Notes under the pieces: model-generated | What the model was told of the DNA's origin: nothing | The model's database searches: none | What the model saw: the letters and a program-made list of their open reading frames with translations, nothing else | Made by a program: the position numbers and the translations under genes | From: Streptomyces vietnamensis | Lineage (GTDB): Bacteria; Actinomycetota; Actinomycetes; Streptomycetales; Streptomycetaceae | Assembly (NCBI RefSeq): GCF_000830005.1 | Contig: NZ_CP010407.1 | Location: 8,010,001 to 8,074,000 of the forward strand | DNA length: 64,000 nucleotides | Reading direction: 5' to 3' | Shown: one piece after another, positions 31,152 to 52,183 of the stretch | How positions within the stretch are numbered: position 1 is the stretch's first letter | Layout: each line of letters begins with the position of its first letter

Positions 31152-31168
31152 TTCCCGCTCAGCGGGAG
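31152..31168. promoter_or_regulatory. Candidate IclR operator upstream of hsaE
   Basis: TTCCCGCTCAGCGGGAG. The first ten bases are identical to the sites at 40081 and 52167 and the right arm follows nYGGGAR. It ends 75 bp before the hsaE start codon. Confidence 0.7.
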
Positions 31169-31243
31169 CGGGCGCTCCCCGGCCGCCGCGCCCCCGGCCT
31201 AGCCTCGCCGGACAGCCCCAACCGCCCGCAGGAGGGACCCGCC

Positions 31244-32026
31244 ATGCTCACGGACCGCCAGAGACAAGAGGCGGCCGAGCTGCTCCGCTCCGCCGAACAG
31301 CACGTCGCACCGATCGCCCCGCTGACCGAGGCGTTCCCCGGCATCGACACCGAGGACGCGTACGAGATCCAGCTCCTCAACATCCGCCACCGCCTCGCGG
31401 CCGGCGCGGCGGTGCGCGGTCACAAGGTGGGCCTGTCGTCCCCGGTGATGCAGCGGATGATGGGCGTCGACGAACCGGACTACGGCCATCTGCTCCACGA
31501 CATGGAGCTCCACCAGGACGTCCCGGTCCGTGCCGCCCGCTACTGCCGACCGCGCGTCGAGGTCGAGGTCGGTTTCGTCCTCGGCGACGACCTGCCGGGC
31601 GAGACCTGCACCCCGGCGGACGTCCTCGCCGCCACCGAACGCGTCGTGCCCGCCCTGGAGTTGATCGACAGCAGGATCCGCGACTGGCGGATCACCATCG
31701 CCGACACCATCGCGGACAACGCCTCCTCCGCCGGATACGTCATCGGCGAGGGCCGGGATCCCCGCGAGCTCGACCTCAAGGCGATCGACGCCCGGTTGAG
31801 CAGCGGTGGTGAGCTGCTCGCCGAGGGGCGCAGCGACGCCGTGCTCGGCGATCCGGTCCTCTCCGTCGCCTGGCTGGCCCGTACCGTCGCCCGCTTCGGC
31901 GTGCCCCTGAAGAAGGGGCACGTGGTGCTGCCCGGTTCCTGCACCCGGGCCGTCGACGTGGCGGCCGGGGGCACCTTCACCGCCGAGTTCGCCGGCCTTG
32001 GCTCCGTCTCCCTCTCGTTCATCTGA
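31244..32026 (+). CDS. hsaE: 2-hydroxypenta-2,4-dienoate hydratase, HsaE-like
   Basis: 260 residues, GGAGGGA ribosome binding site before the ATG. Fits the MhpD/TesE/HsaE hydratase family: [47 protein letters not shown] (Glu metal ligands), [32 protein letters not shown] and [37 protein letters not shown]. It hydrates the 2-hydroxydienoate released from rings A/B by HsaD to a 4-hydroxy-2-oxo acid. It starts the hsaE-hsaG-hsaF-kshA-orf-kshB gene run. Confidence 0.92.
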
Positions 32027-32033
32027 GGTGATC

Positions 32034-32945
32034 ATGACCATCAAGACAAAGGCGACCGCCGCCATCGTCGGATCCGGCAACATCGGCACCGACCTGCTGT
32101 ACAAGCTGCAGCGCTCCGCGTACGTCGAACCCCGCTGGATGATCGGCGTCGACCCCGACAGCGAGGGCCTCGCCCGCGCCGCCCGGGCCGGCCTGGAGGC
32201 CAGTCACGAAGGCGTCGACTGGCTGCTCGCCCAGGACGAGAAGCCCGACATCGTCTTCGAGGCCACCAGCGCCTACGTCCACCGGGCCAACGCCCCCCGC
32301 TACGCCGAACTCGGCATCAAGGCCGTCGACCTGACGCCGGCGGCCGTCGGCCCCGCCGTCGTACCGCCCGCCAACCTCCGCGAGCACCTGGACCAGCCGA
32401 ACGTCAACATGATCACCTGCGGTGGACAGGCCACCATCCCCATGGTGTACGCGGTCTCCCGCGTCGTCCCCGTCCCGTACGCGGAGATCGTCGCCTCGGT
32501 GGCCTCCGTCTCGGCCGGCCCCGGAACCCGGGCGAACATCGACGAGTTCACCCGCACCACCTCGCGCGGCATCGAGACCATCGGCGGCGCCGAGCGCGGC
32601 AAGGCCATCATCATCCTCAACCCGGCCGAGCCGCCCGTCATCATGCGCGACACCGTCTTCTGCGCCATCCCCGAGGACGCCGACCGGGACGCCATCGCCC
32701 TCTCCGTCAAGGAGATCGCCGAGCAGGTCGCCTCGTACGTCCCCGGATACCGGCTGCGCGCCGAACCGCAGTTCGACGACCCCAGCCCTTCGAGCGGCGG
32801 GATGGCCCGCGTCGCGATCTTCCTGGAGGTGGAGGGCGCCGGCGACTACCTGCCGCCCTACGCCGGAAACCTCGACATCATGACCGCCGCCGCCACCAAG
32901 GTCGGCGAGGAGTTCGCCAAGGCGATCCTCGCCGTCGGCGCGTAA
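32034..32945 (+). CDS. hsaG: Acetaldehyde/propionaldehyde dehydrogenase (acylating), HsaG
   Basis: 303 residues. NAD site [21 protein letters not shown], catalytic Cys in [64 protein letters not shown]. It converts the aldehyde channelled from HsaF to acetyl- or propionyl-CoA. An aldolase/dehydrogenase complex forms with the next gene product, 12 bp downstream. The family is well conserved and the assignment is firm; the steroid role comes from context. Confidence 0.95.
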
Positions 32946-32957
32946 GGAGCACCCCGC

Positions 32958-33980
32958 ATGCCCTACTCGGACACCCTCGACATCCGGATCACCGACTCCT
33001 CGCTGCGCGACGGCTCCCACGCCAAGCGCCACCAGTTCACCGCCGACGACGTACGGTCGATCGTCGCCGCCCTCGACGGCGCCGGCGTCCCGGTGATCGA
33101 GGTGACGCACGGCGACGGACTCGGCGGATCCTCGTTCAACTACGGGTTCTCCAGGACCCCCGAGCAAGAGCTGATCAAGGTCGCCGTCGAGACCGCGCGC
33201 TCGGCGAGGATCGCCTTCCTCATGCTCCCCGGACTCGGCGTCAAGGACGACATCCGGGCCGCCCACGGCAACGGCGCGAGCATCTGCCGCATCGCCACCC
33301 ACTGCACCGAGGCCGACATCGCCGACCAGCACTTCGGACTCGCCCGCGAGATGGGCCTGGAGACCGTCGGCTTCCTGATGATGGCCCACTCCACGACCCC
33401 CGAGAAGCTGGCGCGCCAGGGCCGCGTCATGGCCGATGCGGGCTGCCAGTGCGTGTACGTCGTCGACTCGGCCGGCGCCATGGTCATGGACGACGTCACC
33501 GCCCGCGTCGAGGCCCTCGTCGCCGAGCTCGGCGACGACGCCCAGGTCGGCTTCCACGGCCACGAGAACCTGGCCCTCGGCACCGGCAACTCCATCGCCG
33601 CCGTCAAGGCCGGAGCCCTCCAGATCGACGGCTCCACCCGCCGGCTCGGCGCCGGAGCGGGCAACACCGCCGTCGAGGCCCTCGTCGCGGTCTGCGCCAA
33701 GATGGGCATCCGCACCGGCATCGACGTACTGAAGATCATCGACGCGGCCGAGGACGTCGTCCGCCCCGTCATGGACGACGAGTGCCGGCTCGACCGGCTC
33801 GCCCTCCTCATGGGCCACGCCGGCGTCTACTCCAGCTTCCTCAAGCACGCCTACCGGCAGGCCGAGCGCTACGGCGTCTCCGGCGCCGAGATCCTCCTGC
33901 GCGCGGGCGAACGCCGCCTGGTCGGCGGCCAGGAGGACCAGCTCATCGACATCGCCGTCGAACTCGCCGCGCAGAACTGA
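32958..33980 (+). CDS. hsaF: 4-hydroxy-2-oxovalerate (2-oxohexanoate) aldolase, HsaF
   Basis: 340 residues, AAGGAG ribosome binding site. HMGL-like TIM barrel: [54 protein letters not shown] (metal and catalytic Arg-Asp), [63 protein letters not shown] (HGHE metal-binding His pair). It cleaves the 4-hydroxy-2-oxo acid to pyruvate and an aldehyde that is passed to HsaG. Confidence 0.95.
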
Positions 33981-34005
33981 ACCGACACACATCAGGAGGG
34001 ACGAG

Positions 34006-35160
34006 ATGACTGCTCTCAACGACGAGGTCCGGGTCATCGACGCGGGCAGGCCGCCGACGCGGTTCGCCCGGGGCTGGCACTGCCTTGGCCTCGCCGACGC
34101 CTTCAAGGACGGAAAGCCGCACGAGATCGAGGCCTTCGGCACCAAGCTGGTGGTTTTCCAGGGCCAGGACGACGGACAGCTGCACGTCCTCAACGCCTAC
34201 TGTCCCCACATGGGCGGCAACCTCGCCCAGGGCACCGTCAAGGGCGACGCCGTCGCCTGTCCCTTCCACGACTGGCGCTGGTCGGGCGACGGCCGCTGCG
34301 CCGGCATCCCGTACGCCCGCCGCGTCCCGCCCCGCGCCAGGACCCGCGCCTGGATCTCGCTGGAGCGCAACAAGCAGCTCTTCGTCTGGAACGACCCCGA
34401 GGGCAACCCCCCGCCCCCCGAGGTGACCGTCCCCGAGATCGCGGGCATCCACGGCCCGGAAGCCGACCAGTGGAGCGACTGGACCTGGAAGACCCTCCGG
34501 GTCGAGGGCGCCAACTGCCGCGAGATCGTCGACAACGTCGTGGACATGGCGCACTTCTACTACGTCCACTACGCGTTCCCCGAGTACTTCAAGAACGTCT
34601 TCGACGGCCACGTCGCCACCCAGTACATGGAGAGCAGCCCCCGCGGGGACATGGAACTGGGCACCCTCAGCTCCGGCCGCCTGCGCTCCGACGCCTCCTA
34701 CTTCGGCCCCTCCTACATGATCGACCACCTCTACAGCGACGTCGGCGGCGGCGCGGAGATGGAGATCGTCCTCATCAACTGCCACTACCCGATCGACGAG
34801 AACAGCTTCCTGCTCCAGTACGGGGCGATCGTGAAGCGGCTGCCCGGGATGACGGACGAGCAGGCCGCCGAGGCCGCACGGCTCACCGCCGAGGGAGCCA
34901 CCGTCGGCTTCGAGCAGGACGTGGAGATCTGGCAGAACAAGACCCGGATCGACAACCCCCTGCTCACCGAGGAGGACGGCCCCGTCTACCAACTGCGGCG
35001 TTGGTACGAGCAGTTCTACGTCGACGTCGCCGACGTCAAGGACGAGATGACCCGCCGCTTCGAGTTCGAGATCGACACGCAGCGCGCCAACGCGGCATGG
35101 CGCGCCGAGGTCGAGGAGAACCTGGCGCGCCGCGCGGCGGAGACGGAAACCGGAGCCTGA
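34006..35160 (+). CDS. kshA: 3-ketosteroid 9-alpha-hydroxylase, oxygenase component (KshA)
   Basis: 384 residues, the KshA length. Rieske cluster Cys66-x-His68 in NAYCPHMGG and Cys85-x2-His88 in VACPFHDWRW. Mononuclear iron ligands His183 and His188 in DMAHFYYVHYAF and Asp305 in FEQDVEIW, almost the positions known for mycobacterial KshA. With the reductase KshB it hydroxylates C9 of 1,4-androstadien-3-one steroids, which opens ring B and aromatises ring A. It is followed after one base by a small Cys-containing protein gene and then kshB. Confidence 0.95.
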   Translation: MTALNDEVRVIDAGRPPTRFARGWHCLGLADAFKDGKPHEIEAFGTKLVVFQGQDDGQLHVLNAYCPHMGGNLAQGTVKGDAVACPFHDWRWSGDGRCAGIPYARRVPPRARTRAWISLERNKQLFVWNDPEGNPPPPEVTVPEIAGIHGPEADQWSDWTWKTLRVEGANCREIVDNVVDMAHFYYVHYAFPEYFKNVFDGHVATQYMESSPRGDMELGTLSSGRLRSDASYFGPSYMIDHLYSDVGGGAEMEIVLINCHYPIDENSFLLQYGAIVKRLPGMTDEQAAEAARLTAEGATVGFEQDVEIWQNKTRIDNPLLTEEDGPVYQLRRWYEQFYVDVADVKDEMTRRFEFEIDTQRANAAWRAEVEENLARRAAETETGA

Positions 35161-35161
35161 C

Positions 35162-35464
35162 ATGCAAGCGGTGGAGTGCGCGGCCTGCGGCAACCAGGTC
35201 CTGTGCGAGAAGTTCAGCATCGCCCACACCTCCGTGCAGTGGACGGCCGACGCGGCCGTCGTCTGCACGGAGTTCGGCGAACGGGTCGGCCGGGGCGGGA
35301 ACACCGCCCGGATGCGGACCTGCGGGGCCCTGCGGGCGAGCATCGACCGTGCGGTCGAGGACGGCACCCTGACGGTCAGCACCCTGGAGCCGGTCGGCCC
35401 GGAGTCCGGCACCCGGGAGTACGACATGGCAGGCACCGCGACCACGGAGGCCGGCGATGCCTGA
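35162..35464 (+). CDS. Small cysteine-containing protein between kshA and kshB, unknown function
   Basis: 100 residues, starting one base after the kshA stop and overlapping the kshB start by 8 bp, so it is part of the kshA-kshB translational unit. The N-terminus holds C6-x2-C9-x5-C15 (ECAACGNQVLCEKFSIAHTSVQWT), with two more Cys in VVCTEFGE and MRTCGALRASIDRAV. This could form a small zinc or Fe-S knuckle. The C-terminal 35 residues are low complexity and probably disordered. I recall no counterpart in the textbook two-component KSH systems. It might be an accessory electron carrier or assembly factor; that is inference from position only. Confidence 0.75.
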   Translation: MQAVECAACGNQVLCEKFSIAHTSVQWTADAAVVCTEFGERVGRGGNTARMRTCGALRASIDRAVEDGTLTVSTLEPVGPESGTREYDMAGTATTEAGDA

Positions 35465-36503
35465 GCCCACGACCAGCCCTCGCACCCACCGGTTGCGCGT
35501 CGTCGAGGTCATCGCAGAGACGGCCGACGCGCACTCCCTGGTGCTCCAGGCACCACCGGAGAGCGCGGACCGCTTCACGTACCGCCCCGGGCAGTTCCTC
35601 ACCCTGAAGCTGCCCGGCGCGGATGGTCACCCCGCGGCCCGCTGCTACTCCCTCGCCAGCTCGCCCCACACCGGCGAGCCGATGAAGATCACCGTCAAGC
35701 GGGTCGCCGGCGGGTACGGCTCCAACTGGGTCTGCGACCGGCTCGCGGCAGGCGACGAGCTGGAAGTGCTGCCCCCGGCCGGCACCTTCACCCCCGACTC
35801 CCTCGACGGCGACCTGCTGCTCGTCGCCGGAGGGAGCGGCATCACCCCCGTCCTGTCGATCGCCAAATCGGCGCTGGCCGGAGGCCGGGGCCGGGTGGTG
35901 CTGCTGTACGCCAACCGCGACGAGTCCTCGGTCATCTTCCGCGACGAGCTGCGGGAGCTGACCGAGGACCACCCGGACCGGCTCCTCGTGATCCACTGGC
36001 TGGAGTCGCTCCAGGGCCTGCCCGCCGCGGAACTGCTGGCCGCCGCGCTCGCGCCGTACGCCGACCGCGAGGCCTTCGTCTGCGGCCCGCAGCCGCTCAT
36101 GGACGCCGTCGAGCAGGCCCTGCGCCCGCTCGGCACGCCCGGCGACCGCATCCACCGGGAACGCTTCTTCTCGTTGAGCGCGGACGTCTTCGACGCCCCC
36201 ACGGTGCCACACAGCACGGAGACCGAGGGCGCCGGCACGGCCGAGGTCGAGCTCGACGGCGAGACCCACACCGTCGCCTGGCCGGCGGCGACCCCCCTGC
36301 TCGACGTCCTCCTGGCCGCGGGCGTGGACGCCCCGTACTCCTGCCGGGAGGGCGCCTGCAGCGCCTGCACCTGCCGGGTCGTGACGGGCGAGGTCAAGAT
36401 GCTCCGCAACGACGTCCTGGACGACCAGGACGTCGCCGAGGGATACGTCCTGGCCTGCCAGGCCCTCCCGCTCACCGACCGGGTCGAGATCACCTATTCC
36501 TGA
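35457..36503 (+). CDS. kshB: 3-ketosteroid 9-alpha-hydroxylase, ferredoxin reductase (KshB)
   Basis: 348 residues with FAD, NAD and [2Fe-2S] domains in order. FAD site RCYSLASSPHTG near residue 62; NAD domain LLLVAGGSGITPVLSIAKSAL, VLLYANRDESSVIFRDEL and FVCGPQPLMDAVEQAL; C-terminal plant-type ferredoxin with Cys-x4-Cys-x2-Cys in CREGACSACTCRV and the fourth Cys in VLACQALP. It feeds electrons from NADH to KshA, directly upstream. A phenylacetyl-CoA epoxidase-type reductase would look similar, but the kshA neighbour settles it. Confidence 0.93.
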   Translation: MPEPTTSPRTHRLRVVEVIAETADAHSLVLQAPPESADRFTYRPGQFLTLKLPGADGHPAARCYSLASSPHTGEPMKITVKRVAGGYGSNWVCDRLAAGDELEVLPPAGTFTPDSLDGDLLLVAGGSGITPVLSIAKSALAGGRGRVVLLYANRDESSVIFRDELRELTEDHPDRLLVIHWLESLQGLPAAELLAAALAPYADREAFVCGPQPLMDAVEQALRPLGTPGDRIHRERFFSLSADVFDAPTVPHSTETEGAGTAEVELDGETHTVAWPAATPLLDVLLAAGVDAPYSCREGACSACTCRVVTGEVKMLRNDVLDDQDVAEGYVLACQALPLTDRVEITYS

Positions 36504-36516
36504 GGAGGGGACCGCC

Positions 36517-37293
36517 ATGTCCCGAACCTGTCTGGTCACCGGAGCGGCCTCCGGCATCGGCGAGGCCACCGCCGCCCTGCTGCGGAAGCAGGGTCACACC
36601 GTCATCGGCGCCGACCTCACCGAGGGCGACATCCGCGCCGACCTGTCCACGGCCGAGGGCCGGGCCGAACTCGTCGCCCGGGCCCGCGAGCTGACCGGCG
36701 GCCGTCTCGACGCCGTCGTCTCCTGCGCGGGAGTCGCCCACTTCGACCCCCTCACGATCAGGGTCAACCACTTCGGCGCCGTGGCCACGCTCGACGGTCT
36801 GCGTCCGCTCCTCGCGGCCGGCACCGATCCGCGGGCCGTGGTCGTCGGCTCCATCGACTCCGTCCACCCCACCGACCCCGCGATCGTGGACGCCGCGCTC
36901 GCCGGGGACGAGACGGCGGCGGTGGCCGCCTCGCGCGCGGCCGTCGACCGCGGCGAGGGGCACCTCGTCTACTCCTCCTCCAAGGCGGCGATCTCCCGCT
37001 GGGTCCGCCGCGCCGCACCCACCGACGCGTGGGCCGGGGCGGGCGTCCCGCTCAACGCGGTGGCCCCCGGCGTGGTCGTCACGCCCCTGACCCGGCCGAT
37101 GCTCGACGACCCGGAGATGCGGGGGCTCGTGGAGCAGAGCGTGCCGATGCCGCTGCACGGACACGCCCGCCCCGAGCAGCTGGCCCCGCTGATCGCGTGG
37201 CTGGCCTCGCCCGAGAACGCCCTCGTGACCGGGCAGGTCGTCTTCGCCGACGGGGGAGCCGACGCGCTCCTGCGCGGCGACCGCACCTGGTGA
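36517..37293 (+). CDS. Short-chain dehydrogenase, 3-alpha-hydroxysteroid dehydrogenase-like
   Basis: 258 residues. LVTGAASGIGEATAALLRKQGHTVIGADLTEGDIRADLSTAEGR and the shortened core RVNHFGAVATLDGLRPLLAAG closely recall Comamonas 3-alpha-HSD/carbonyl reductase (HsdA), in particular the DLSTAEGR turn and the lack of the usual alpha-helix region before the active site. Catalytic Ser in VVVGSIDSVHP and YSSSKAAISRWVRR (Tyr-x3-Lys). It would interconvert 3-hydroxy and 3-oxo steroids, delivering the 3-ketone that KstD and KshA need. 13 bp after kshB, so in the same operon, which ends at the next hairpin. Confidence 0.82.
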   Translation: MSRTCLVTGAASGIGEATAALLRKQGHTVIGADLTEGDIRADLSTAEGRAELVARARELTGGRLDAVVSCAGVAHFDPLTIRVNHFGAVATLDGLRPLLAAGTDPRAVVVGSIDSVHPTDPAIVDAALAGDETAAVAASRAAVDRGEGHLVYSSSKAAISRWVRRAAPTDAWAGAGVPLNAVAPGVVVTPLTRPMLDDPEMRGLVEQSVPMPLHGHARPEQLAPLIAWLASPENALVTGQVVFADGGADALLRGDRTW

Positions 37294-37390: not shown

Positions 37391-37837
37391 GTGAATCCCC
37401 GTACGCTCGAACGCTCCGCCGTCCTCCCGGCCGCCCCCGACGCCGTGTGGGCGGTCGTCGGAGACTTCGGCGCCCTTGCCGACTGGCACCCCCACGTGCC
37501 GCCGTCCGCCCTGGAGGACGGCGGCGACCCTGCCGCCCCCGGCACCGTCCGGGTCTTCGCGGTCGACGGCGTGACCGTCGCCCGGGAGCGTCTGCTCGAC
37601 CGCGACGAGGCCGCCCGCTCGTACCGCTACGCCCTCCTCGACCCCGTCATGCTCCCGGTGGACGACTACGTGGCGACGCTCGCCGTGCGTTCGCACCCCG
37701 ACGGTGCCGAGGTCCGGTGGTCCGCCGCCTACCGGAGCGCGGACGACGTCGTCGCCCAGGTGGAGGCGGTCTTCGGGGACGGCACCTACGGCACAGGGCT
37801 CGCCGCCCTGCGGGCGCGCTTCACATCCACTCGCTGA
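37391..37837 (+). CDS. SRPBCC-family (START-like) small protein
   Basis: 148 residues, GTG start with GGAG upstream. N-terminal RSAVLPAAPDAVWAVVGDFGALADWHPHVPPSAL is the standard opening of the polyketide cyclase/SRPBCC fold, which forms a hydrophobic ligand pocket. The C-terminus VEAVFGDGTYGTGLAALRARF matches the long C-terminal helix. It could bind a steroid or an intermediate, or act as a cyclase/isomerase; no catalytic residues stand out. Its end overlaps the converging IclR gene by 17 bp, inside the steroid locus. Confidence 0.78.
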   Translation: MNPRTLERSAVLPAAPDAVWAVVGDFGALADWHPHVPPSALEDGGDPAAPGTVRVFAVDGVTVARERLLDRDEAARSYRYALLDPVMLPVDDYVATLAVRSHPDGAEVRWSAAYRSADDVVAQVEAVFGDGTYGTGLAALRARFTSTR

Positions 37838-38702: not shown

Positions 38703-38883
38703 CGGCACCTCCCACACGGACAGCCCAGCCGATCGACCCCTGGCTGGGTCCGTAATCTCCGGTATTGCGTGGAGATTGCCAGAGGATGACAGCGCTGTGA
38801 AGAGGGAGTTCCGTCTCGGAACAGTAACGCGTAGGTTCCCTGTCGTCACGGCACGACGAGACCGGAATGCAAGAGGTGCGCCC
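38703..38883. promoter_or_regulatory. Divergent promoter region, IclR gene / first hsaA
   Basis: Contains GTTCCG-TCT-CGGAAC at 38808-38822, a perfect 6-bp-arm palindrome 61 bp before hsaA, and an interrupted inverted repeat around CCCAGCC (near 38724) and GGCTGGG (near 38742). It lacks the 17-bp TTCCCGCTCA motif found at three other operons, so the two promoters here may be controlled through a different site. Confidence 0.45.
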
Positions 38884-40053
38884 ATGCGCGAAGAGGACGT
38901 TCTCGCGGCGGTACGCGCCCTCGCCCCCGCCCTGCGCGAGCGCGCGACCGAGGCGGAGGAGCTGCGCCGGGTCCCCGACGCCTCCGTGAAGGAGCTGACG
39001 GAGGCCGGTTTCTTCCGGCTGCTCCAGCCAGGGGCGTACGGCGGACTCGCCGCCGACCCGGCCGTCTTCTACGCCGCCGTGCACGAGATCGCCAAGGCCT
39101 GCGGCTCGACCGGCTGGGCGGCGGCCGTCCTCGGTGTCCACCCCTGGTACGTGGCCCAGTTCGACCCGCGGGCCCAGGAGGAGGTCTGGGGCGCGGACGG
39201 ATCCACCCGGATCTGCTCCTCCCACGCCCCCACCGGCGAGGTCACCACCGTCGACGGCGGCTTCCGGCTCTCCGGCCGCTGGCACTTCTCGGCCGGCTGC
39301 GACCACGCCCGGTGGGCGCTGCTCGGCGGCCTCGTCACCGACGCCGAGGGCCGGCCGGTGGACATGCTGACCTTCCTGGTGCCGTACGCCGACTACCGCG
39401 TCGACGCGGTCTGGGACACGGTCGGGCTGCGCGGCAGCGGCAGCAACGACGTCGTCGTCGAGGACGCCTTCGTCCCCGCCCACCGGGCGCTCGGCTACGG
39501 CCCGGTGACCACGCTGAGCTGCCCCGGGCAGGAGGTCCACCCGGAGCCGCTCTACCGGCTGCCGTACGCGGCCGTCTTCACCACCACCATCTCCACCGCG
39601 ATGGTCGGCATCGCCGAGGGCGCCCACGAGGACCAGGTCGACGCGGCCCGCGAGCGCCTGAAGGCCCCGCAGGGCCGACGGGCCGCCGAGGACCCCTTCG
39701 CCCAGGCGCGCATCGCCCGCGCCGCCGGCGAGATCGACGCCGCCCGGCTCCAGCTCCACCGCAACATGACCGAGCTGTACGCGCTCGCGCGCGACGGCGC
39801 CCCGATCCCCAGGGAACTGCGCGCCCGCACCCGCCGCGACCAGGCCCTCGCCACCGAACGCGCCATCACGGCCGTGGACCTGCTCATGGAGAACGCCGGC
39901 CGCGGACCGCTCCACGTGGGCGACGACGTCCTCCAGCGCGCCTGGCGCGACCTGCACACCGGCCGCGGCCAGGCCGCCAACGACGTCGACCGGGCGCTCG
40001 TCCTCTACGCCCAGGACGCCCTCGGCATGGACGTCCACGACCCCATGCTCTGA
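38884..40053 (+). CDS. hsaA: Flavin-dependent 3-HSA 4-monooxygenase-like, HsaA paralogue 1
   Basis: 389 residues, acyl-CoA dehydrogenase fold of the two-component aromatic hydroxylase type. LRRVPDASVKELTEAGFFRLLQPGAYGGLAADPAVFYAAVHEIAKACGSTGWAAAVLGVHPWYVAQF, HAPTGEVTTVDGGFRLSGRWHFSAGCDHARWALLGG and DTVGLRGSGSNDVVVEDAFVPAHRALGYG match HsaA/HsaA-like hydroxylases. It would hydroxylate 3-HSA to the catechol 3,4-DHSA using reduced flavin from HsaB. It is a close paralogue of the next gene, separated from it by a hairpin. Whether both act on 3-HSA is unknown. Confidence 0.85.
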   Translation: MREEDVLAAVRALAPALRERATEAEELRRVPDASVKELTEAGFFRLLQPGAYGGLAADPAVFYAAVHEIAKACGSTGWAAAVLGVHPWYVAQFDPRAQEEVWGADGSTRICSSHAPTGEVTTVDGGFRLSGRWHFSAGCDHARWALLGGLVTDAEGRPVDMLTFLVPYADYRVDAVWDTVGLRGSGSNDVVVEDAFVPAHRALGYGPVTTLSCPGQEVHPEPLYRLPYAAVFTTTISTAMVGIAEGAHEDQVDAARERLKAPQGRRAAEDPFAQARIARAAGEIDAARLQLHRNMTELYALARDGAPIPRELRARTRRDQALATERAITAVDLLMENAGRGPLHVGDDVLQRAWRDLHTGRGQAANDVDRALVLYAQDALGMDVHDPML

Positions 40054-40059
40054 CCCGCG

Positions 40060-40085
40060 GGGAACCCTCCCGCACGAGGGTTCCC
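40060..40085. terminator. Hairpin between the two hsaA paralogues
   Basis: Perfect 10-bp arms (GGGAACCCTC / GAGGGTTCCC) around CCGCAC, 6 bp past the first hsaA stop. Its right arm partly overlaps the candidate IclR operator at 40081-40097. A second inverted repeat with 9-bp arms (CCGTACGGC / GCCGTACGG) follows at 40113-40132, in the promoter of the second hsaA. Confidence 0.65.
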
Positions 40086-40097: not shown

Positions 40098-40173
40098 CAG
40101 CGCATTTCGCTGCCGTACGGCACGCCGTACGGTCCTGGCATTCCCCCACCACGACCCGAAAGGGGATGCCCCC

Positions 40174-41340: not shown

Positions 41341-41352
41341 GAGGCGTTGACG

Positions 41353-42225: not shown

Positions 42226-42278
42226 CCCCGCTGAACCTTCTGAACTTTCTGACACCTTCCACAGAAGAGGTGCACACC

Positions 42279-43187
42279 ATGGACATCCGTGCTCTCGGAT
42301 ACCTCCGCCTGGAGACCACCACCCTGGACGAGTGGCGCCGCTACGCGCTCGACGTCCTCGGCATGGTGGAGGCGACCGGCACCACCGAGGACACCCTCTG
42401 CCTCCGCCTGGACGACCGCGCCTACCGCATCGTCATCCAGGCCGGCGAGAGCGACCGGCTCCTCGCGGCCGGCTGGGAGGTGGCGAACTCCGCCGCACTC
42501 GCCCGCGCCGCCGAGGAGCTGGAGGCCGCCGGCGTCGCCGTCAAGGCCGCCGACCCCGCCGAACTCGCCGAGCGCCGCGTCCAGGGCCTCATCCACGTCA
42601 CGGACCCCGGCGGCAACCCGCTGGAGATCTACTGGGGCCAGGCCCAGGACCACACCGCGCTCGGCACCCCGTACGGCAACCGCTTCGTCACCGGGACCCC
42701 CGCAGGGGAGGACTTCGGCCTCGGCCACGTCGTGCTCCCGGTGCCGGACATCGAGGCCGCGCTCGACTTCTACGAGAACCTGCTCGGCTTCCAGCTGCGC
42801 GACTCGATGAAGCTGCCGCCGCAGGCCGTCCCGACCGCCACCGAGCAGCGGGACTTCCACTGGATGCACTTCCTGAGCCCCAACCGCCGCCACCACAGCC
42901 TCGGCCTCTACCCCGGCGCCCTGCCCCCCGGCATCGTGCACTTCATGGTGGAGCTGGAGACCCTCGACGACGTGGGCCGCGGTCTCGACCGCATGCAGGC
43001 CGCGGGCATCCCCATCGCGTCCAGCCTCGGCCGCCACACCAACGACCGCATGGTGTCCTTCTACGCCCAGGCCCCCGGCGGCTTCCAGGTCGAGTACGGC
43101 TGGGACGGCCTCGTCGTCGACCCCGCCACCTGGGTCGCGAAGGAGATCACCGCCGACAGCTTCTGGGGCCACCGGTGGAACGGCTGA
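42279..43187 (+). CDS. hsaC: 3,4-DHSA extradiol dioxygenase, HsaC
   Basis: 302 residues, type I two-domain extradiol dioxygenase. Fe(II) ligands His150 (FGLGHVVLP), His221 (GIVHFMVE) and Glu272 (FQVEYG); conserved active-site RHHSLGLYP and Tyr262. It performs the meta-cleavage of the aromatised ring A of 3,4-DHSA between HsaA and HsaD. An AGAGG ribosome binding site precedes the ATG. Its last 13 bases overlap hsaB. Confidence 0.95.
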   Translation: MDIRALGYLRLETTTLDEWRRYALDVLGMVEATGTTEDTLCLRLDDRAYRIVIQAGESDRLLAAGWEVANSAALARAAEELEAAGVAVKAADPAELAERRVQGLIHVTDPGGNPLEIYWGQAQDHTALGTPYGNRFVTGTPAGEDFGLGHVVLPVPDIEAALDFYENLLGFQLRDSMKLPPQAVPTATEQRDFHWMHFLSPNRRHHSLGLYPGALPPGIVHFMVELETLDDVGRGLDRMQAAGIPIASSLGRHTNDRMVSFYAQAPGGFQVEYGWDGLVVDPATWVAKEITADSFWGHRWNG

Positions 43188-43663
43188 TCCCGCCGTCCGA
43201 GTTCCGGGACGTCCTCGGCCGCTTCGCCAGCGGCATCACGGTCGTGGCGACGCTCGACGCCGACACCCTGGAACCGGTCGGATTCGCCTGCCAGTCCTTC
43301 GCCTCGCTCTCCCTCGACCCCCCGCTGGTCATGCTGGCCGTCGGCAAGAACTCCACCAGCTGGCCGAGGATCGAGCGGTCGGGCCGCTTCTGCGTCAACA
43401 TCCTGGCCGAGGACCAGCAGGCCACCTGCGCCGCCCTCGGCCGCAGCGGCCCCGACAAGTTCGCCGGGGTGCCCTGGAGCACCGGCGAGCACGGCACCGT
43501 GCGCATCGACGGAGCCCTCGCCCACGTGGAGTGCGAGCTGGACGCCGTGTACGAGGCCGGGGACCACCACTTGGTCACGGCACAGGTGGTGGCGCTCGAC
43601 GCCGGCGAGGACGGCCGGCCGCTGCTGTTCTTCCGCAGCCGCTACGCCGTGGGCGCGTTCTGA
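43175..43663 (+). CDS. hsaB: Flavin reductase, HsaB
   Basis: 162 residues from the GTG at 43175, which overlaps hsaC by 13 bp. Flavin reductase domain: FRDVLGRFASGITVVATLDADTLEPVGFACQSFASLSLDPPLVMLAVGKNSTSWPRIERSGRFCVNILAEDQQATCAALGRSGPDKFAGVPW, the usual FMN-binding split-barrel. It supplies reduced flavin to HsaA by diffusion. Stop and next start share one base. Confidence 0.93.
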   Translation: MERLIPPSEFRDVLGRFASGITVVATLDADTLEPVGFACQSFASLSLDPPLVMLAVGKNSTSWPRIERSGRFCVNILAEDQQATCAALGRSGPDKFAGVPWSTGEHGTVRIDGALAHVECELDAVYEAGDHHLVTAQVVALDAGEDGRPLLFFRSRYAVGAF

Positions 43664-44532
43664 TGCCCCTCGACGTCGAGAAGGCGCTCTCCGCGCCGCC
43701 GGTGCGCACCGAGGTCGGGTGGGACGAGCGCGACGTACGGCTCTACCACCTGGCGCTCGGCGCCGGCGTCCCCGAGACCGACCCGCGCGAACTGCGTTAC
43801 GCGTACGAGGGACACGAGCGGGGCCTCCAGGTCCTGCCCACCTTCGGCGTCGTCGCGGGCGGCACCGGCGGTGTCGGCTTCCAGGTCTTCGACCTGCCGG
43901 GCGTCGACATCGACCTGGCGAAGGTGCTGCACGGCGGCCAGGAGATCACCGTGCACCGCCCGCTGCCCGCCGCCGCACGGGCGACCGCGGTCACCCGGGC
44001 CGTGGCCGTGCACGACAAGGGCAAGGCCGCCGTCATCGTCCAGGAGTCCACCCTCATCGGCGAGGACGACGAGCCGCTGATCACCCAGCGGAACCAGATC
44101 TTCGTCCACGGGGAGGGCGGCTTCGGCGGCGACCGCGGTCCCTCCGAGCGCCTCCCCGCACCCGACCGGGAACCCGATCTGGTGGCCGAGGTCCCGACGC
44201 TCCGTCAGCAGGCCCTGCTCTACCGGCTCACCGGGGACTGGAACCCGCTGCACGCCGACCCGGCCACCGCCCGCCGCGCGGGCCACGACCGCCCCATCCT
44301 GCACGGACTCTGCTCCTTCGGGATGGCGGTCAAGGCGGTCACCGACCGGCTGCTCGACGGCGACGCGAGCGCGGTCACCGGCTGCCGCACCCGCTTCGCC
44401 GGGGTCTTCTTCCCCGGCGAGACCCTGCGGCTGCGGGTCTGGAAGACCCCCGACGGCTACCGGCTGACGGCCACGGCCGCGGACCGCGAGGACGCGCCGG
44501 TCCTCACCGACGCGCGGATCACCGCGCGATGA
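43663..44532 (+). CDS. MaoC-like double-hotdog enoyl-CoA hydratase
   Basis: 289 residues, two hotdog folds as in fungal or peroxisomal hydratase 2. The hydratase-2 motif YRLTGDWNPLHADPATARRAGHDRPILHGLCSFGMA is complete, with catalytic Asp and His. It forms (3R)-hydroxyacyl-CoA from 2-enoyl-CoA. Its position next to kstD mirrors Rv3538 (Hsd4B-like) beside kstD in Mycobacterium, where it is linked to steroid-acid beta-oxidation. The MFE-type SDR at 29.7 kb would be a matching (3R)-hydroxyacyl-CoA dehydrogenase. It overlaps hsaB by one base. Confidence 0.87.
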   Translation: MPLDVEKALSAPPVRTEVGWDERDVRLYHLALGAGVPETDPRELRYAYEGHERGLQVLPTFGVVAGGTGGVGFQVFDLPGVDIDLAKVLHGGQEITVHRPLPAAARATAVTRAVAVHDKGKAAVIVQESTLIGEDDEPLITQRNQIFVHGEGGFGGDRGPSERLPAPDREPDLVAEVPTLRQQALLYRLTGDWNPLHADPATARRAGHDRPILHGLCSFGMAVKAVTDRLLDGDASAVTGCRTRFAGVFFPGETLRLRVWKTPDGYRLTATAADREDAPVLTDARITAR

Positions 44533-44537
44533 CCCGG

Positions 44538-44569
44538 CGGCCGGGGCGGAGGACGGCCCGCCCCGGCCG
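44538..44569. terminator. Intercistronic hairpin before kstD
   Basis: Perfect 12-bp arms (CGGCCGGGGCGG / CCGCCCCGGCCG) around 8 nt, starting 6 bp past the MaoC-like stop and ending 33 bp before the kstD start. It may attenuate transcription or protect mRNA ends inside an otherwise continuous operon. Confidence 0.55.
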
Positions 44570-44601
44570 TCGACCCACCTGACACGACCAGGGAGAACCG
44601 C

Positions 44602-47095
<2,494 letters not shown>

Positions 47096-47096
<1 letters not shown>

Positions 47097-47860
47097 TGCC
47101 CGTCGATCTGACAGGAAAGGTCGCGCTGGTCACCGGCGCGGCTCGCGGCATGGGCGAGGCCGAGGCCCGCCTGTTCGCCGCCCTCGGGGCGAAGGTCGTC
47201 CTCACCGACGTCCTGGAGGCGGAGGGAGAGGCGACGGCCGCCTCCCTCGGCGCCGCCGCCCGCTTCGTACGCCACGACGTGACCGACGAGCAGTCCTGGG
47301 CGGCCGCCGTGGCCGCCGCCCAGGACGCCTTCGGCCGGCTCGACGTCCTCGTCAACAACGCCGCGATCTACTCCGCCTCGCCCATCACCGAGGAGGACCC
47401 GGCCCGCCTGGAGGCGATCCTCCGCGTCAACCTGATCGGCCCCTTCCTCGGCATCCGCGCCGTCGCGGGGGCGATGCGGGAGAGCGGCGGCGGCTCCATC
47501 GTCAACATCTCCTCGCAGGCCGGCCTCCAGGGCATCTGGGGCCACGGCGCGTACGGAGCCGCGAAGTGGGGGCTGCGCGGTCTGACCAAGACGGCCGCGC
47601 TCGAACTCGGTCCGGACGGCATCCGGGTCAACTCCGTCCATCCGGGGGCCATCACCACCGCGATGACCGCCCACCTGGGCACCAAGGAACATCCCGCCGC
47701 GCCGCTCGGACGGGTGGGGGAGCCCGAGGAGGTCGCCCGTCTCGTCGCCTTCCTCGCCTCCGACGACTCCTCCTACCTCTCCGGCGCCGAACTCGCCGTC
47801 GACGGCGGCGCGTCGGCCGGCCGCATGCCGCTCCTCACCCCGAAAGGAACGGACGCGTGA
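47096..47860 (+). CDS. Short-chain dehydrogenase, hydroxysteroid dehydrogenase-like
   Basis: 254 residues, overlapping the preceding stop by one base. [123 protein letters not shown]. It is related to the preceding 20-beta-HSD but diverged in the substrate loop after the active site. Between the 20-beta-HSD and an esterase, it is a good candidate for the 17-beta-hydroxyl oxidation (testosterone to androstenedione) or for 3-beta-hydroxyl oxidation. The choice cannot be made from sequence alone. Confidence 0.85.
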
Positions 47861-47892
47861 ACCAGACCCCGAAGGGAACCGACGAGTGAACC
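47837..47892 (+). repeat. 29-bp tandem duplication covering a ribosome binding site and start codon
   Basis: 47837-47863 and 47866-47892 match at 24 of 27 positions; each carries GAAAGGAA/GAAGGGAA and then GTGAACC. The first GTG (47857) opens a 10-codon frame that ends at 47889 on a TGA overlapping the real esterase GTG (47886). So a short translated leader coupled to the esterase is possible. Confidence 0.6.
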
Positions 47893-48800
47893 GACCCGAC
47901 CCCGACGTCCAGGCCGTCATCGACCTGGCCACCGCCGGCTTCCCGCCGCTGGCGACGGAGATGACGGACATCGCCGAGGTGCGCGCCTTCTTCGCCGCCC
48001 GCCCCCGGCCCGCCGTCCCCCCGCCCCCCGTCGCCCGCGTGGCGGACGAGGACGCCGACGGCGTGCCCGTACGCGTCTACGACCCGGCCGTCCACGAGGC
48101 CGCCCCCGTGATCGTGTTCTGCCACGGGGGCGGCTTCGTCCTCTGCGACCTCGACAGCCACGACCCCTTCTGCCGCGCCCTCGCCCGCGCCACGGAGGCG
48201 ATCGTCGTCTCCGTCGACTACCGCCGCGCCCCCGAACACCCCTTCCCCGCCGCCCCCGAGGACGCCTACACGGCCCTCCTCTGGGCGGCGAGGACCTTCC
48301 CGGGCCGCCGGATCGCCGTCGCCGGGGACAGCGCGGGCGCCAACCTCGCCACCGTCCTCACCCTGCTCTCCCGCGACCGGGGCGGCCCCGAGATCGCCTG
48401 CCAGGCGCTGTACTACCCGATGCTCGACCCCACCCGCTCCCGCCCCTCGCACCGCGAGAACGCCCGGGGCTACTTCCTCACCGCCGACCACCTGCGCTGG
48501 TACTGGGACGGCTACCTGCAGAACCCCGTGGACCGCACCAGCCCCTACGCGGCCCCGCTCGCCGGCGCCGACCTGTCCGGACTCCCGCCGGCCCAGCTCG
48601 TCACCGCCGGCTTCGACCCGCTCCGGGACGACGGCCTGGCGTACGCGGAAGCCCTGACCGCCGCGGGGGTCCCGGTGCAGGCCCGCCACCACGCCGGGAT
48701 GTTCCACGGCTTCCTCTCCATGGCGGGCGCCCTGCCCGCGGCCGCCGAGGCCCGCGAGACCGCCTTCGCCGCCCTGCGCGAGGCCCTTGCCGCGCGCTGA
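47886..48800 (+). CDS. Alpha/beta-hydrolase, hormone-sensitive-lipase family esterase
   Basis: 304 residues. HSL signature HGGG in VIVFCHGGGFVLCDLDSHDPFCRALARATEAIVVSVDYRRAPEHPFPAAPEDAY, nucleophile Ser in AVAGDSAGANLATV, Asp in GFDPLRDDGLAYAEAL and His in HHAGMFHGFLSM complete the triad. HSL esterases cleave short acyl esters of bulky alcohols. Last gene of the run from hsaA paralogue 2 through kstD, and placed tail to tail with the Baeyer-Villiger monooxygenase gene, it could hydrolyse the 17-acetoxy ester that enzyme would make. That substrate is inferred from context. Confidence 0.87.
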   Translation: MNRPDPDVQAVIDLATAGFPPLATEMTDIAEVRAFFAARPRPAVPPPPVARVADEDADGVPVRVYDPAVHEAAPVIVFCHGGGFVLCDLDSHDPFCRALARATEAIVVSVDYRRAPEHPFPAAPEDAYTALLWAARTFPGRRIAVAGDSAGANLATVLTLLSRDRGGPEIACQALYYPMLDPTRSRPSHRENARGYFLTADHLRWYWDGYLQNPVDRTSPYAAPLAGADLSGLPPAQLVTAGFDPLRDDGLAYAEALTAAGVPVQARHHAGMFHGFLSMAGALPAAAEARETAFAALREALAAR

Positions 48801-48820
48801 CCGACGCGTACGCGCGCCTG

Positions 48821-48858: not shown

Positions 48859-48879
48859 CTTTGCGGGGCGGCGCCGGCC

Positions 48880-50502
48880 TCAGCCGCGTATCAGCTCGAA
48901 CCCCTTGTACCCCGAGGCCGCGACGTCCGTGATGATCTCCCCGTACACCCCGAAGCCACCGATGAACGGCATGAACACCCGCGGCTTGCCCGGGATGTTG
49001 GCCCCCAGGTACCAGGAGTTCGCCGCCGGGAACAGCGTCGCCGCCGCCCGGTCGCGGCACTGCGCGACCCACTGCTCGACGGCCTCCGCGCTCGCCTCGA
49101 TCGCGCGGTAGCCGTGCTCGTCCAGATGGCGCAGGCAGTCGGCGAGCCAGTCGCCGTGCTGCTCGGCGCAGAGCACGACGTTGGCCATGACGGACGGGCT
49201 GCCGGCGCTCGTGAGGTTGAACAGGTTCGGGAAGCCGTCGACGCCCAGGCCCAGATAGGTGCGAGGACCCCCGCTCCAGACCTCCTTCAGGGGCCGGCCG
49301 CCCCGCCCCCGGACGTCCACCCGGTCGATCGCGCCGGTCATCGCGTCGAAACCGGTCGCGAACACGATCGCGTCGAGCTCCACCCGGGTGCCGTCGGCAA
49401 GCACGATCCCGGCGGCGTCGATCCGCTCGATCGGGTTCTCCCGCAGGCTCACGAGACGCACGTCGTCGCGGTTGAACGTCTCGTAGTAGTGCGAGTCGGT
49501 GACGATCCGCTTGGTGCCGATCGGATGGTCCGTGGGGACGAGGAGGTCGGCGGTGGCCGGGTCCTCGATGAGGGCGCGGACCTTCTCCTCCCAGAACGCG
49601 CGCGCCTCCTCGTTCGCCGCGAGGTCGGTCAGCTGGTCGGGGAAGGTCTTCGAGTACAGGACGCCGCCCAGCTCCCAGCGCTCCTCGAACGCGGCCCGCC
49701 GCTCCTCGGCGGACACCTCGAACGTCGCCGACGGGTGCGCCGCGTGGGGCGAGCCGCCGCCGCTGAGCCGCGAAAGCCGCCGCCGCTCGGCGTAGCCGGC
49801 CTTCTGCCGGCGGCGCGTCTCCTCGTCCAGGGGCCTGTTGCCCGCCGGGATGCTGAAGTTGGCGCTGCGCTGGAAGACGGTCAGGTGCGCCGCCTGCTCG
49901 GCGATCAGCGGGATGGCCTGGATGCCGGAGGAGCCGGTGCCGATCACACCGACGCGCAGCCCGCCGAAGTCCACGCCCTCGTGCGGCCAGGCGCCGGTGT
50001 GGTACGTGGCTCCCGCGAACTCCCCGGCCCCCGGGATGTCCGGCATGTGGGTGCTGGAGAGGCAGCCGACGGCGAACACGCAGAACCGGGCCGACACCAC
50101 CTCGCCGCCGTCCGTGCGGACCGTCCAGCGCAGCGTCTCCTCGTCCAGCTCGGCCGAGGTCACCGAGGTGGAGAAGGTGTAGCTGCGGCGCAGGTCGAAG
50201 CGGTCGGCGACATGGCGCAGATAGCGGATGATCTCCGGCTGGGCGGCGTACTTCTCGCTCCAGTCCCACTCCTGCTGCAGCTCCTCGTCGAAGGAGTACG
50301 AGTAGTCCACGGACTCCACGTCGCAGCGGGCGCCGGGGTAGCGGTTCCAGTACCAGACGCCGCCCACGTCGTCCCCGCGCTCGAAGCCGCGCACGCTGAA
50401 GCCGAGACCGCGCAGCCTGTGCACGGCGTACAGACCGGTGACGCCCGCGCCGATGACGACGACATCGACGGCATCGACGGACTGGATCTTGCTGTCGTTC
50501 AC
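48880..50502 (-). CDS. Baeyer-Villiger monooxygenase, steroid monooxygenase-like
   Basis: 540 residues. FAD site VVVIGAGVTGLYAVHRLRGLGFSVRGFERGDDVGGVWYWNRYPGARCDVESVDYSYSF, BVMO fingerprint FAGATYHTGAWPHEG (FxGxxxHxxxWP), NADP site VGVIGTGSSGIQAIPLIAEQA, and the late motif DAIVFATGFDAMTG. Length and the conserved stretches WNRYPGARCDVES, FQRSANFSIPAGNRPLD and SWYLGANIPGKPRVFMPFIGGFGVY recall the Rhodococcus steroid monooxygenase, which turns progesterone into testosterone acetate, but cyclopentanone-type BVMOs look similar. It probably inserts oxygen at C20 of pregnan-20-ones. The FadD3-like gene lies 13 bp upstream in the same operon. Confidence 0.87.
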   Translation of the reverse strand: MNDSKIQSVDAVDVVVIGAGVTGLYAVHRLRGLGFSVRGFERGDDVGGVWYWNRYPGARCDVESVDYSYSFDEELQQEWDWSEKYAAQPEIIRYLRHVADRFDLRRSYTFSTSVTSAELDEETLRWTVRTDGGEVVSARFCVFAVGCLSSTHMPDIPGAGEFAGATYHTGAWPHEGVDFGGLRVGVIGTGSSGIQAIPLIAEQAAHLTVFQRSANFSIPAGNRPLDEETRRRQKAGYAERRRLSRLSGGGSPHAAHPSATFEVSAEERRAAFEERWELGGVLYSKTFPDQLTDLAANEEARAFWEEKVRALIEDPATADLLVPTDHPIGTKRIVTDSHYYETFNRDDVRLVSLRENPIERIDAAGIVLADGTRVELDAIVFATGFDAMTGAIDRVDVRGRGGRPLKEVWSGGPRTYLGLGVDGFPNLFNLTSAGSPSVMANVVLCAEQHGDWLADCLRHLDEHGYRAIEASAEAVEQWVAQCRDRAAATLFPAANSWYLGANIPGKPRVFMPFIGGFGVYGEIITDVAASGYKGFELIRG

Positions 50503-50515
50503 GTTCGTACTCTCC

Positions 50516-52060
50516 TCATCGGGTGGTGGTCCCCGCCGACCGCCTCAGCGCCTTCTTGTCGACCTTGCCCGCCGCGTTGTGCGGCAGGGCCGGGAGGGCG
50601 TGGAAGGCGCGCGGGACCTTGAAGTTGGCCAGTCGCTCGCGCGTGTACGAGGTCAGCTCGGCCGCGTCGATCGGAGCGCCGGACGCCGGCACGCAGTACG
50701 CGACGCCGACCTCCCCGAGCCGTGCGTCGGGCGCGCCGACGACCGCCGCGTCCAGGACGGCCGGGTGGCCGCGCAGCACCTGCTCCACCTCCGCCGGGTA
50801 CACGTTGAACCCGCCCACGACGAACATGTCCTTCAGCCGGTCGGTGATCCGCAGGAAGCCGCGCTCGTCGAGCACCCCGACGTCCCCGGTGTGCAGCCAG
50901 CCGTCCGCGTCGACGGCCCGGGCGGTGGCCTCGGGGTCGTCGAGGTAGCCGTGCATCACGTGGTAACCGCGGGTGAGGATCTCGCCGGGCTCCCCGGGCG
51001 GGGCGTCGACGCGCAGCTCCGTGCCCTCCAGGGCCGTTCCGGAGGTGCGGGCCAGGGTCTCCGGGGACTCGTGCGGCGGGCAGATCGCGACCACGCCCGA
51101 TGACTCGGTGAGACCGTACGCGGTGTTGACGCTCCGCGCGCCGAGGGACGTCCTGATCTCCTCGATGAGCGCGGTGGGGATGTTCGCCGCGCCCGTGACC
51201 GCCATCCGCATCGCGCTCAGGTCGTACGCCGCGCGCTCGGGATGGTGGATGAGAGAGGTGAAGACCGTGGGCGCGCCGGTCAGGACGGAGATCCGCTCGT
51301 CCTGCATCCGGGCGAGGACGGCATCGGCGTCGAAGACCCGCTCCGGGACGATCGTGGCCCCGTGCAGGAGGCAGGCGAGGACGCCGGCCTTGTAGCCGAA
51401 GGTGTGGAAGAACGGGTTGACGAGCAGATAGCGGTCGCCGCGCCGGAGGGTCACCGTACGGGCCCAGGCGTCGTACACGCGCAGGTTCTGGCCGTGGGTG
51501 GTGGGCACGCCCTTGGGGCGGCCGGTGGTGCCGGAGGTGAAGAGGACGTCGGCGGTGTCGTCGGGGCGCACGGCGGCGGTACGGGCGAGCCGGTCCTCTC
51601 CGGTCACCCGGTCCGCGCCCGCGAGGAAGTCCGACCAGTCCGCGGAGTGCAGGGTCACCGTCCGCTCCAGGAGCGGGAGTTCCTCCCCCGAGGCCGCGAG
51701 CAGCGCCCGGTAGTCCGTACCCAGGAAGTCGTGCTCGGTGAAAAGGAGACGGGTGCGGGAGCGGCGCAGGATGTCGGCGGCCTCGGCCGCCTTGTAGCGG
51801 GTGTTCACCGGGACGAGGACCCCGCCGGCCGCCACCGCGCCGAGCGCGGCCACCACCCAGCGGGCGCTGTTGGGCGCCCACACGGCGACCGGGTCACCCG
51901 GGCGCACCCCTTGCGCGATCACCGCGCGCGCCACCCGGTCGACCCGGTCGCGCAACTCCGCGAACGTCCAGCGCTCCTCGCCGAAGACGAGGGCCTCCTC
52001 ATCCCCGTACCGCTCGGCGGCCCAGTCCGCGAGCCCGGCGATGGTCTGCGCGCCCCTCAT
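50516..52060 (-). CDS. fadD3: Acyl-CoA synthetase, FadD3-like (HIP-CoA ligase)
   Basis: 514 residues, ANL adenylate-forming fold. P-loop FTSGTTGRPKGVPTTHGQNLRVYDAW, AYGLTESSGVVAIC, YLDDPEATARAVDADGWLHTGDVGVLDERGFLRITDRLKDMFVVGGFNVYPAEVE and the C-terminal catalytic Lys in LPHNAAGKVDKKAL. FadD3 (507 residues in Mycobacterium) activates HIP, the HsaD product, as the CoA ester, the entry point to C/D-ring catabolism and the source of the KstR2 ligand. No other acyl-CoA ligase gene is in the locus, which supports this role. The promoter carries the candidate IclR site at 52167. Confidence 0.85.
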   Translation of the reverse strand: MRGAQTIAGLADWAAERYGDEEALVFGEERWTFAELRDRVDRVARAVIAQGVRPGDPVAVWAPNSARWVVAALGAVAAGGVLVPVNTRYKAAEAADILRRSRTRLLFTEHDFLGTDYRALLAASGEELPLLERTVTLHSADWSDFLAGADRVTGEDRLARTAAVRPDDTADVLFTSGTTGRPKGVPTTHGQNLRVYDAWARTVTLRRGDRYLLVNPFFHTFGYKAGVLACLLHGATIVPERVFDADAVLARMQDERISVLTGAPTVFTSLIHHPERAAYDLSAMRMAVTGAANIPTALIEEIRTSLGARSVNTAYGLTESSGVVAICPPHESPETLARTSGTALEGTELRVDAPPGEPGEILTRGYHVMHGYLDDPEATARAVDADGWLHTGDVGVLDERGFLRITDRLKDMFVVGGFNVYPAEVEQVLRGHPAVLDAAVVGAPDARLGEVGVAYCVPASGAPIDAAELTSYTRERLANFKVPRAFHALPALPHNAAGKVDKKALRRSAGTTTR

Positions 52061-52166
52061 GATCTGTCACGTCCTCCCTGCTGTCCCGCCCCCCGGCGGG
52101 GCGCGGGCGGTGGAACCACAGCGGAGGGGAGCCTGTCAGGGAGGGGGGTCCCGGCGCAGGGGCCGG

Positions 52167-52183
52167 TTCCCGCTCACCGGGAA
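52167..52183. promoter_or_regulatory. Candidate IclR operator upstream of the FadD3-like/BVMO operon
   Basis: TTCCCGCTCACCGGGAA, the most symmetric of the three copies (TTCCCG and CGGGAA arms). It lies 107 bp upstream of the ligase start codon on the minus strand. Confidence 0.7.

Follow-up and report, generated by a model that had tools for sequence, protein, structure and literature searches.

Which regulator controls the genes for the A and B rings in the steroid-degradation cluster of Streptomyces vietnamensis? The cluster lies in a 64,000-nucleotide (nt) stretch of contig NZ_CP010407.1 (assembly GCF_000830005.1, positions 8,010,001 to 8,074,000 of the forward strand). This whole stretch is called the window, and coordinates are window positions unless another locus is named. 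Accounts of how actinobacteria control steroid degradation centre on two TetR repressors, KstR and KstR2. An initial annotation of the window had read a three-copy 17-bp motif, here the 17-mer, as the mark of an IclR regulon. Our analysis suggests that the 17-mer is the operator of the IclR protein encoded in the cluster, which would activate the A/B-ring operons beside KstR2-like and KstR-like TetRs. We give this reading a probability of about 0.6. The features concerned are as follows.

31152..31168, + strand: putative 17-bp palindromic operator upstream of hsaE, TTCCCGCTCAGCGGGAG, matrix score 26.1 bits
40081..40097, + strand: putative 17-bp palindromic operator upstream of hsaA2, TTCCCGCTCAGTGGGAG, matrix score 25.4 bits
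52167..52183, - strand: putative 17-bp palindromic operator upstream of fadD3, TTCCCGCTCACCGGGAA, matrix score 28.3 bits
37821..38702, - strand: IclR-family regulator of 293 amino acids, proposed owner of the operator; Pfam IclR_C 137.9 bits (gathering score 24), HTH_IclR 53.2 bits (gathering score 22)
31244..37293, + strand: putative operon hsaE-hsaG-hsaF-kshA-(100 amino acids)-kshB-SDR, from profile models and context
40174..48800, + strand: putative transcript or transcripts hsaA2-hsaD-hsaC-hsaB-MaoC-like-kstD-SDR-(SDR)-LipP-type esterase, from models
50516..52060, - strand: fadD3, FadD3 model 707.8 bits (cut-off 657)

The three sites lie where the initial annotation had placed them, and the ten left-arm bases are common to all. 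It had described a left arm with a complementary right arm; the sites are real, and they are better described as the palindrome TTCCCGCTSAGCGGGAA. The pattern TTCCCGCTCAnYGGGAR has three exact matches in the 9.15-Mb genome (9,153,777 bases), all inside the steroid cluster, and copies with one mismatch are found at two further places genome-wide. With up to two mismatches, the window holds five matches at three places. The expectation from 100 dinucleotide shuffles is 0.22, and no shuffle gave as many as five. A matrix was built from 88 sites (41 distinct) in loci outside the window’s clade, picked at up to three mismatches to the palindrome. It scores the three sites at 25-28 bits; the next-best place in the window scores 4.7 bits, and the top score across 20 shuffled windows was 15.0. 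Frequent occurrence at unrelated genes had been named as grounds against an IclR regulon. Exact matches in this genome do not show it, since all three fall in the cluster; a looser pattern does give matches outside the cluster in some relatives.

The sites precede their start codons by 75, 76 and 106 nt, in line with the 75-107 bp upstream of steroid operons given at first. The near-equal spacing that the initial annotation saw at two sites (75 and 76 nt) stands, but the constant spacing is really to a -10-like hexamer and holds at all three.

31200..31205, + strand: -10-like hexamer TAGCCT, offset 32 after the operator, putative promoter element
40128..40133, + strand: -10-like hexamer TACGGT, offset 31 after the operator, putative promoter element
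52130..52135, - strand: -10-like hexamer CAGGCT, offset 32 after the operator, putative promoter element

This spacing was followed through 165 site-gene pairs (sites at up to three mismatches), less 14 duplicates, which left 117 directed at a steroid gene and 34 at iclR. In the target promoters TANNNT starts at offset 32 (52 promoters), 31 (34) or 30 (4), making 90 of 117, with no other offset represented within 60 nt. When the first base is left free, NANNNT is found at offsets 30-32 in 112 of the 117, and all other 52 offsets together give 49 matches. By gene, the loose form stands at these offsets before hsaE (34/34), hsaA2 (47/50), fadD3 (8/8), kshA (6/6), SDR2 (9/9), kstD (5/5) and singletons (3/5). 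At least six different operons keep the hexamer spacing, and the distance from site to start codon varies from 34 to 168 nt across the target promoters. Sites that face iclR do not have the same geometry (0/34 for TANNNT and 4/34 for NANNNT at 30-32), so autoregulation of iclR with the geometry of the target promoters was rejected.

The constant distance from operator to hexamer is a new observation here. If the hexamer is taken as the -10 element, the centre of the operator falls near -52, just upstream of the -35 region, and this is an activator-like placement. A constant distance in these 112 promoters, with starts presumed from the hexamers, is also what would be expected of an activator acting from a fixed position. 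Activation is most likely what the geometry points to.

The operator is conserved within Streptomyces. A search with HsaA2 in 246 genomes of the genus gave 54 matches at E <= 1e-60, 17 of them at no less than about 70% identity. In loci of about 4 kb around the matches, the palindrome is found upstream of hsaA2 and is often perfect. In 20-kb neighbourhoods from 20 genomes, one site precedes hsaE, or kshA where hsaEGF is absent, and another precedes hsaA2. In most genomes without hsaA1 the latter occupies the gap between iclR and hsaA2, which diverge; in L068 about 1 kb separates it from iclR (L and G numbers denote loci and genomes). The fadD3 site was found in the window and in L081, L082 and L095, and in L074 it is common to hsaE. 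The gene opposite iclR in L083 is hsaD and not hsaA, and a perfect palindrome is still present. In L056-L059 a related palindrome (up to three mismatches), GTCCCGGTCAGCGGAAA, precedes genes for HsaA-like monooxygenases of about 41% identity, and no IclR match was found within about 4 kb around these genes.

The palindrome also goes together with the regulator. Orthologs of IclR at 55% identity or above were found in 16 of the 246 genomes, and all 16 hold the palindrome in the steroid cluster with at most one mismatch. Of the 230 genomes without an ortholog, 35 have some palindrome match at this threshold (Fisher 1.4e-12 for the co-occurrence, in related and so not independent genomes). In 35 chosen genomes, exact matches to the looser pattern were present in 17/17 that bear the cluster, 0/5 with type-2 clusters and 3/13 others.

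On a wider scale, an alignment of 15 IclR orthologs was used to search the genomes of 84,980 species, which gave 63 loci. The palindrome was found at up to two mismatches in 57 of them (108 sites), and a reversed-pattern control in 0/63. In 33 of the 63 loci a 17-mer (up to three mismatches; L161 is doubtful) is found no more than 350 bp upstream of iclR. The same holds for 7 of the 11 loci outside Streptomyces, where IclR identity is 40-59%; these seven are Microtetraspora niveoalba, five Actinomadura and one Actinocorallia. The 11 exclude L109, labelled Microtetraspora glauca and matching a genome of the window’s genus; this record, JOFO01000005.1 (L109, G076), is probably mislabelled. In Streptomyces, Actinomadura, Actinocorallia and Microtetraspora the palindrome recurs at hsaA, hsaE, fadD3, kshA and other steroid promoters. 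By computation, then, the operator is conserved, it is linked to iclR and its spacing to the hexamer is fixed.

Variant palindromes stand beside more distant IclR genes, GTTCCCGATSAGTGGAACG at hsaB|hsaD in the type-2 loci L096 and L097 and TGTTCCGCTCAGCGGACAC in L098. The type-2 steroid clusters L096 and L097 (G155 and G179) have an IclR only 40-42% identical and KstR-like TetR genes nearby.

The 17-mer can also be compared with known operators of the family. One of the main published types of IclR-family operator is WTTYCRYW3RYGRAAW, a variant of the group-1 form GKTYCRYW3-4RYGRAMC (PMC8222616). The consensus of the 17-mer fits the former at 14 of 17 positions, with mismatches at the centre and at the symmetric positions 3 and 15. 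Against three odd-length IclR types, 860 of 200,000 random palindromes (73% GC) fit equally well. The start codon of iclR was chosen from conservation and the ribosome-binding site. An unusual C-terminal tail, MDNMMxWLRFSEWM, follows the effector domain and is common to its orthologs (37821-37880). Their recognition helix is nearly invariant, and no useful covariation with the operator was found.

Co-occurrence, linkage upstream of iclR and the fit to the family consensus thus support the IclR regulon that the initial annotation had proposed. Its claim that IclR is the only unassigned local regulator did not hold, for a TetR lies in the cluster and an AraC/GlxA-type regulator just beyond it. 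The argument by elimination for IclR as owner of the 17-mer is weak.

~22888..23478, + strand: TetR-family regulator, KstR2-like by position; Pfam TetR_N 68.1 bits, KstR model 34.6 bits (cut-off 280)
54674..55687: AraC/GlxA-type regulator, just beyond the cluster

We infer IclR binding, activation, transcription starts and an inducer in the following form. IclR would sit on the 17-mer as a dimer or tetramer, just upstream of -35 and centred near -52 from the presumed start, possibly with a steroid-ring intermediate as co-inducer, which is a guess. Bound IclR would bring RNA polymerase to three weak promoters, in front of hsaE-kshAB, of hsaA2DCB-kstD and of fadD3 with the neighbouring Baeyer-Villiger monooxygenase gene. 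The A/B-ring half of the pathway would then be under an IclR activator, in contrast to the KstR repression of mycobacteria and rhodococci. The KstR2-like TetR would keep its own boxes at the C/D-ring genes. The genus-wide KstR-like TetR, encoded elsewhere, would act through KstR-type boxes, one by the gene that encodes it and one at a steroid-thiolase/P450 promoter.

Several observations weigh against this reading. Many of the compared promoters are orthologs, so their counts overstate independence. Six of the 63 IclR loci (L127, L149, L150, L160, L161 and L163) have no 17-mer at up to two mismatches. G157, counted among the 35 genomes above, has the site and no IclR ortholog was found there; its hsaA carries three internal stops. 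Looser-pattern matches lie outside the cluster in G012, G103, G157, G161 and G175, and in 3 of 13 cluster-less genomes. A second palindrome, (b), with the form GTATTTCnnnnnGAAATAC, is upstream of iclR in 40 of the 63 loci (up to four mismatches), reaching Actinomadura, and so oftener than the 17-mer with its 33. The iclR promoter of the window itself has no 17-mer and carries a (b)-type palindrome, which in the window’s clade has the form GTTCCGnnnCGGAAC. Thus, (b) could be the IclR site.

38808..38822, no strand assigned: second palindrome, window form of (b), between iclR and hsaA1, GTTCCGTCTCGGAAC

These facts about (b) are what favours an unlinked factor as the binder of the 17-mer, with IclR binding only (b) and controlling itself. 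This is unlikely, though it is the alternative that survives best, and no systematic search was aimed at such a factor. A hand alignment shows a closer fit to the IclR consensus for the 17-mer than for (b). The centres of the two palindromes are 22 nt apart in 18 and 23 nt apart in 3 of 35 pairs, a spacing that matches IclR tandem sites, reported at 18-22 nt (PMC8222616). IclR and the 17-mer also occur together in 16 of 16 genomes. Since the same source lists GenR with both 7- and 5-base spacers (PMC8222616), a single IclR protein may by analogy bind both the 17-mer and (b).

It is less likely again that IclR binds the 17-mer and mainly represses until a steroid intermediate releases it. Most members of the IclR family are repressors, and the centres of IclR sites are reported to peak at -20 to -80 relative to the gene start, a range that overlaps these sites (PMC8222616). 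However, the site ends before -35, and the distance to the hexamer stays fixed while that to the start codon varies. A repressor needs no such phasing, and the repressor reading is disfavoured for this reason.

Although KstR and KstR2 are known actinobacterial steroid regulators (PMC7807495, PMC9782250), binding of the 17-mer by a TetR-type protein, whether of the KstR2-like or the KstR-like kind, is most improbable: the KstR2-like boxes are at other promoters (20907 and 28797), the KstR-like TetR is present in 22/22 genomes tested and in 9/10 genomes without HsaA, most of them without the 17-mer, with KstR-type boxes near its own gene, and the 17-mer is absent from all five type-2 clusters, four of which have further KstR-like TetR genes near hsaA.

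20907..20920, no strand assigned: KstR2-like box AACAAGTGTTTGGT in the gap that separates the divergent echA-type and fadE-type genes, 2 mismatches to the KstR2 box pattern
28797..28810, no strand assigned: KstR2-like box ACCAAACGTTTGTT in the gap that separates the divergent echA20-type and ipdF-type genes, 3 mismatches to the KstR2 box pattern

The KstR2-like boxes are thus at two divergent C/D-ring promoters, and such boxes were found in type-2 clusters too; the 20907-type box recurs in 5/6 other loci scanned. The KstR2-like TetR was rejected as owner of the 17-mer because it has these other boxes and type-2 clusters have no 17-mer. The best KstR-like match in the genome is a TetR at 2.58 Mb, with 200.5 bits against the KstR cut-off of 280. 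Two intergenic KstR-type boxes are found in the 40 kb around it (L164:6877 and L165:17540, at about 2.58 and 2.61 Mb). One is at the gene of this TetR itself. The other stands between the genes of a P450 and a steroid thiolase, the latter with 693.4 bits against a cut-off of 515. It is possible that this region of about 2.58-2.61 Mb is a core sterol side-chain locus in Streptomyces. The window has no intergenic AACnnGTT box, the core of the KstR type; its four matches (23983, 49220, 51411 and 60225) are all inside open reading frames. KstR was rejected as owner on this ground and because the KstR-like TetR is genus-wide. Loss of KstR together with its side-chain substrate, a simple explanation, was also dropped, because a side-chain thiolase (FadA5-type, over the cut-off) is present in 20 of 21 genomes.

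The genes of the cluster can indicate what is degraded. In the hsaE-kshB operon the aldehyde dehydrogenase and aldolase models are above their cut-offs. The hydratase, Rieske oxygenase and reductase models are below theirs, so the names hsaE, kshA and kshB rest on gene context. The models for HsaA1, HsaA2, HsaD and LipP1 were passed, and those of HsaB and KstD type scored below cut-off. GC-rich repeats of the type CCCACAACGG lie at about 30950-31070, between an SDR gene and hsaE.

38884..40053, + strand: hsaA1, divergent from iclR; NF045629 542.8 bits (cut-off 450)
47886..48800, + strand: LipP-type esterase, LipP1 model above cut-off
48880..50502, - strand: Baeyer-Villiger monooxygenase; best solved relative is the steroid monooxygenase 4aos, 830.6 bits

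hsaA1 is a tandem paralog of hsaA2, 72% identical. Within this tandem (38884-41340) palindrome (b) stays with hsaA1 and the 17-mer with hsaA2, and it looks as if one promoter module was divided after the duplication. The Baeyer-Villiger monooxygenase is closest to a steroid monooxygenase and adjoins the LipP-type esterase, which suggests removal of the side chain from C21 steroids. The two are a possible pair for the cleavage of the progesterone side chain.

Taken together, steroid control in bacteria of the Streptomyces/Actinomadura type may be split. A core KstR-like repressor would serve side-chain-type genes, a KstR2-like repressor the C/D rings and an acquired IclR activator the A/B rings. 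KstR senses side-chain acyl-CoA. The activator would sense a C19 or C21 ring metabolite, so that sterol side chains are not needed to induce the steroid monooxygenase and esterase pathway. Across genera, the cluster, its operator and the regulator would have stayed together. This joint reading is tentative and falls somewhat short of even odds. If an IclR activator does run the A/B-ring genes in these bacteria, one and the same pathway has been rewired to the opposite logic, probably with a different inducer. This would then bear on the prediction of steroid degradation from genomes, on steroid biosensors and on strains for steroid drugs, where the choice of the regulator removed decides whether the rings are attacked. 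IclR regulators of catabolism are already known; the place in a pathway thought to be TetR-repressed is unexpected. A search of open-access papers found none that describes an IclR/17-mer steroid regulon; subscription literature lay outside that search.

Among known systems, GenR of Corynebacterium glutamicum is, like the IclR of the window, an actinobacterial IclR regulator of a ring-cleavage pathway (3-hydroxybenzoate/gentisate). Going by the title of a 2013 paper by Chao and Zhou, GenR reportedly both activates and represses. It differs in serving aromatic acids and not steroids and in its operator sequence, a palindrome given as ATTCC-N7(5)-GGAAT (PMC8222616). The PcaR/PcaU/PobR subfamily is related in that its model, TIGR02431, is the best NCBIfam match of the IclR protein, at 145.2 bits and below the curated cut-off of 284.75. 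Members of this subfamily are activators of ring catabolism. The operators listed for PcaU/PobR are of the GTTCGAT type, unlike the 17-mer (PMC8222616).

For steroids, KstR controls the side chain and the A/B rings and KstR2 the C/D rings in mycobacteria and rhodococci (PMC7807495, PMC9782250). The same halves of the pathway are controlled, whereas KstR and KstR2 are TetR repressors with other operators. SRTF1 of Nocardioides simplex is a further regulator of steroid genes in an actinobacterium that is not KstR (PMC7807495); unlike the IclR of the window, it belongs to the TetR family and regulates kstD2. The genes mentioned for a steroid cluster of Rhodococcus ruber Chol-4 include an IclR (PMC6498646). 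MhpR of Escherichia coli, although it serves the phenylpropionate pathway, resembles the proposed IclR: it is an activator of that family whose palindrome lies upstream of -35. The position of that palindrome is near -58. Its operator is listed as GGTGCACCTGGTGCACA (PMC8222616).

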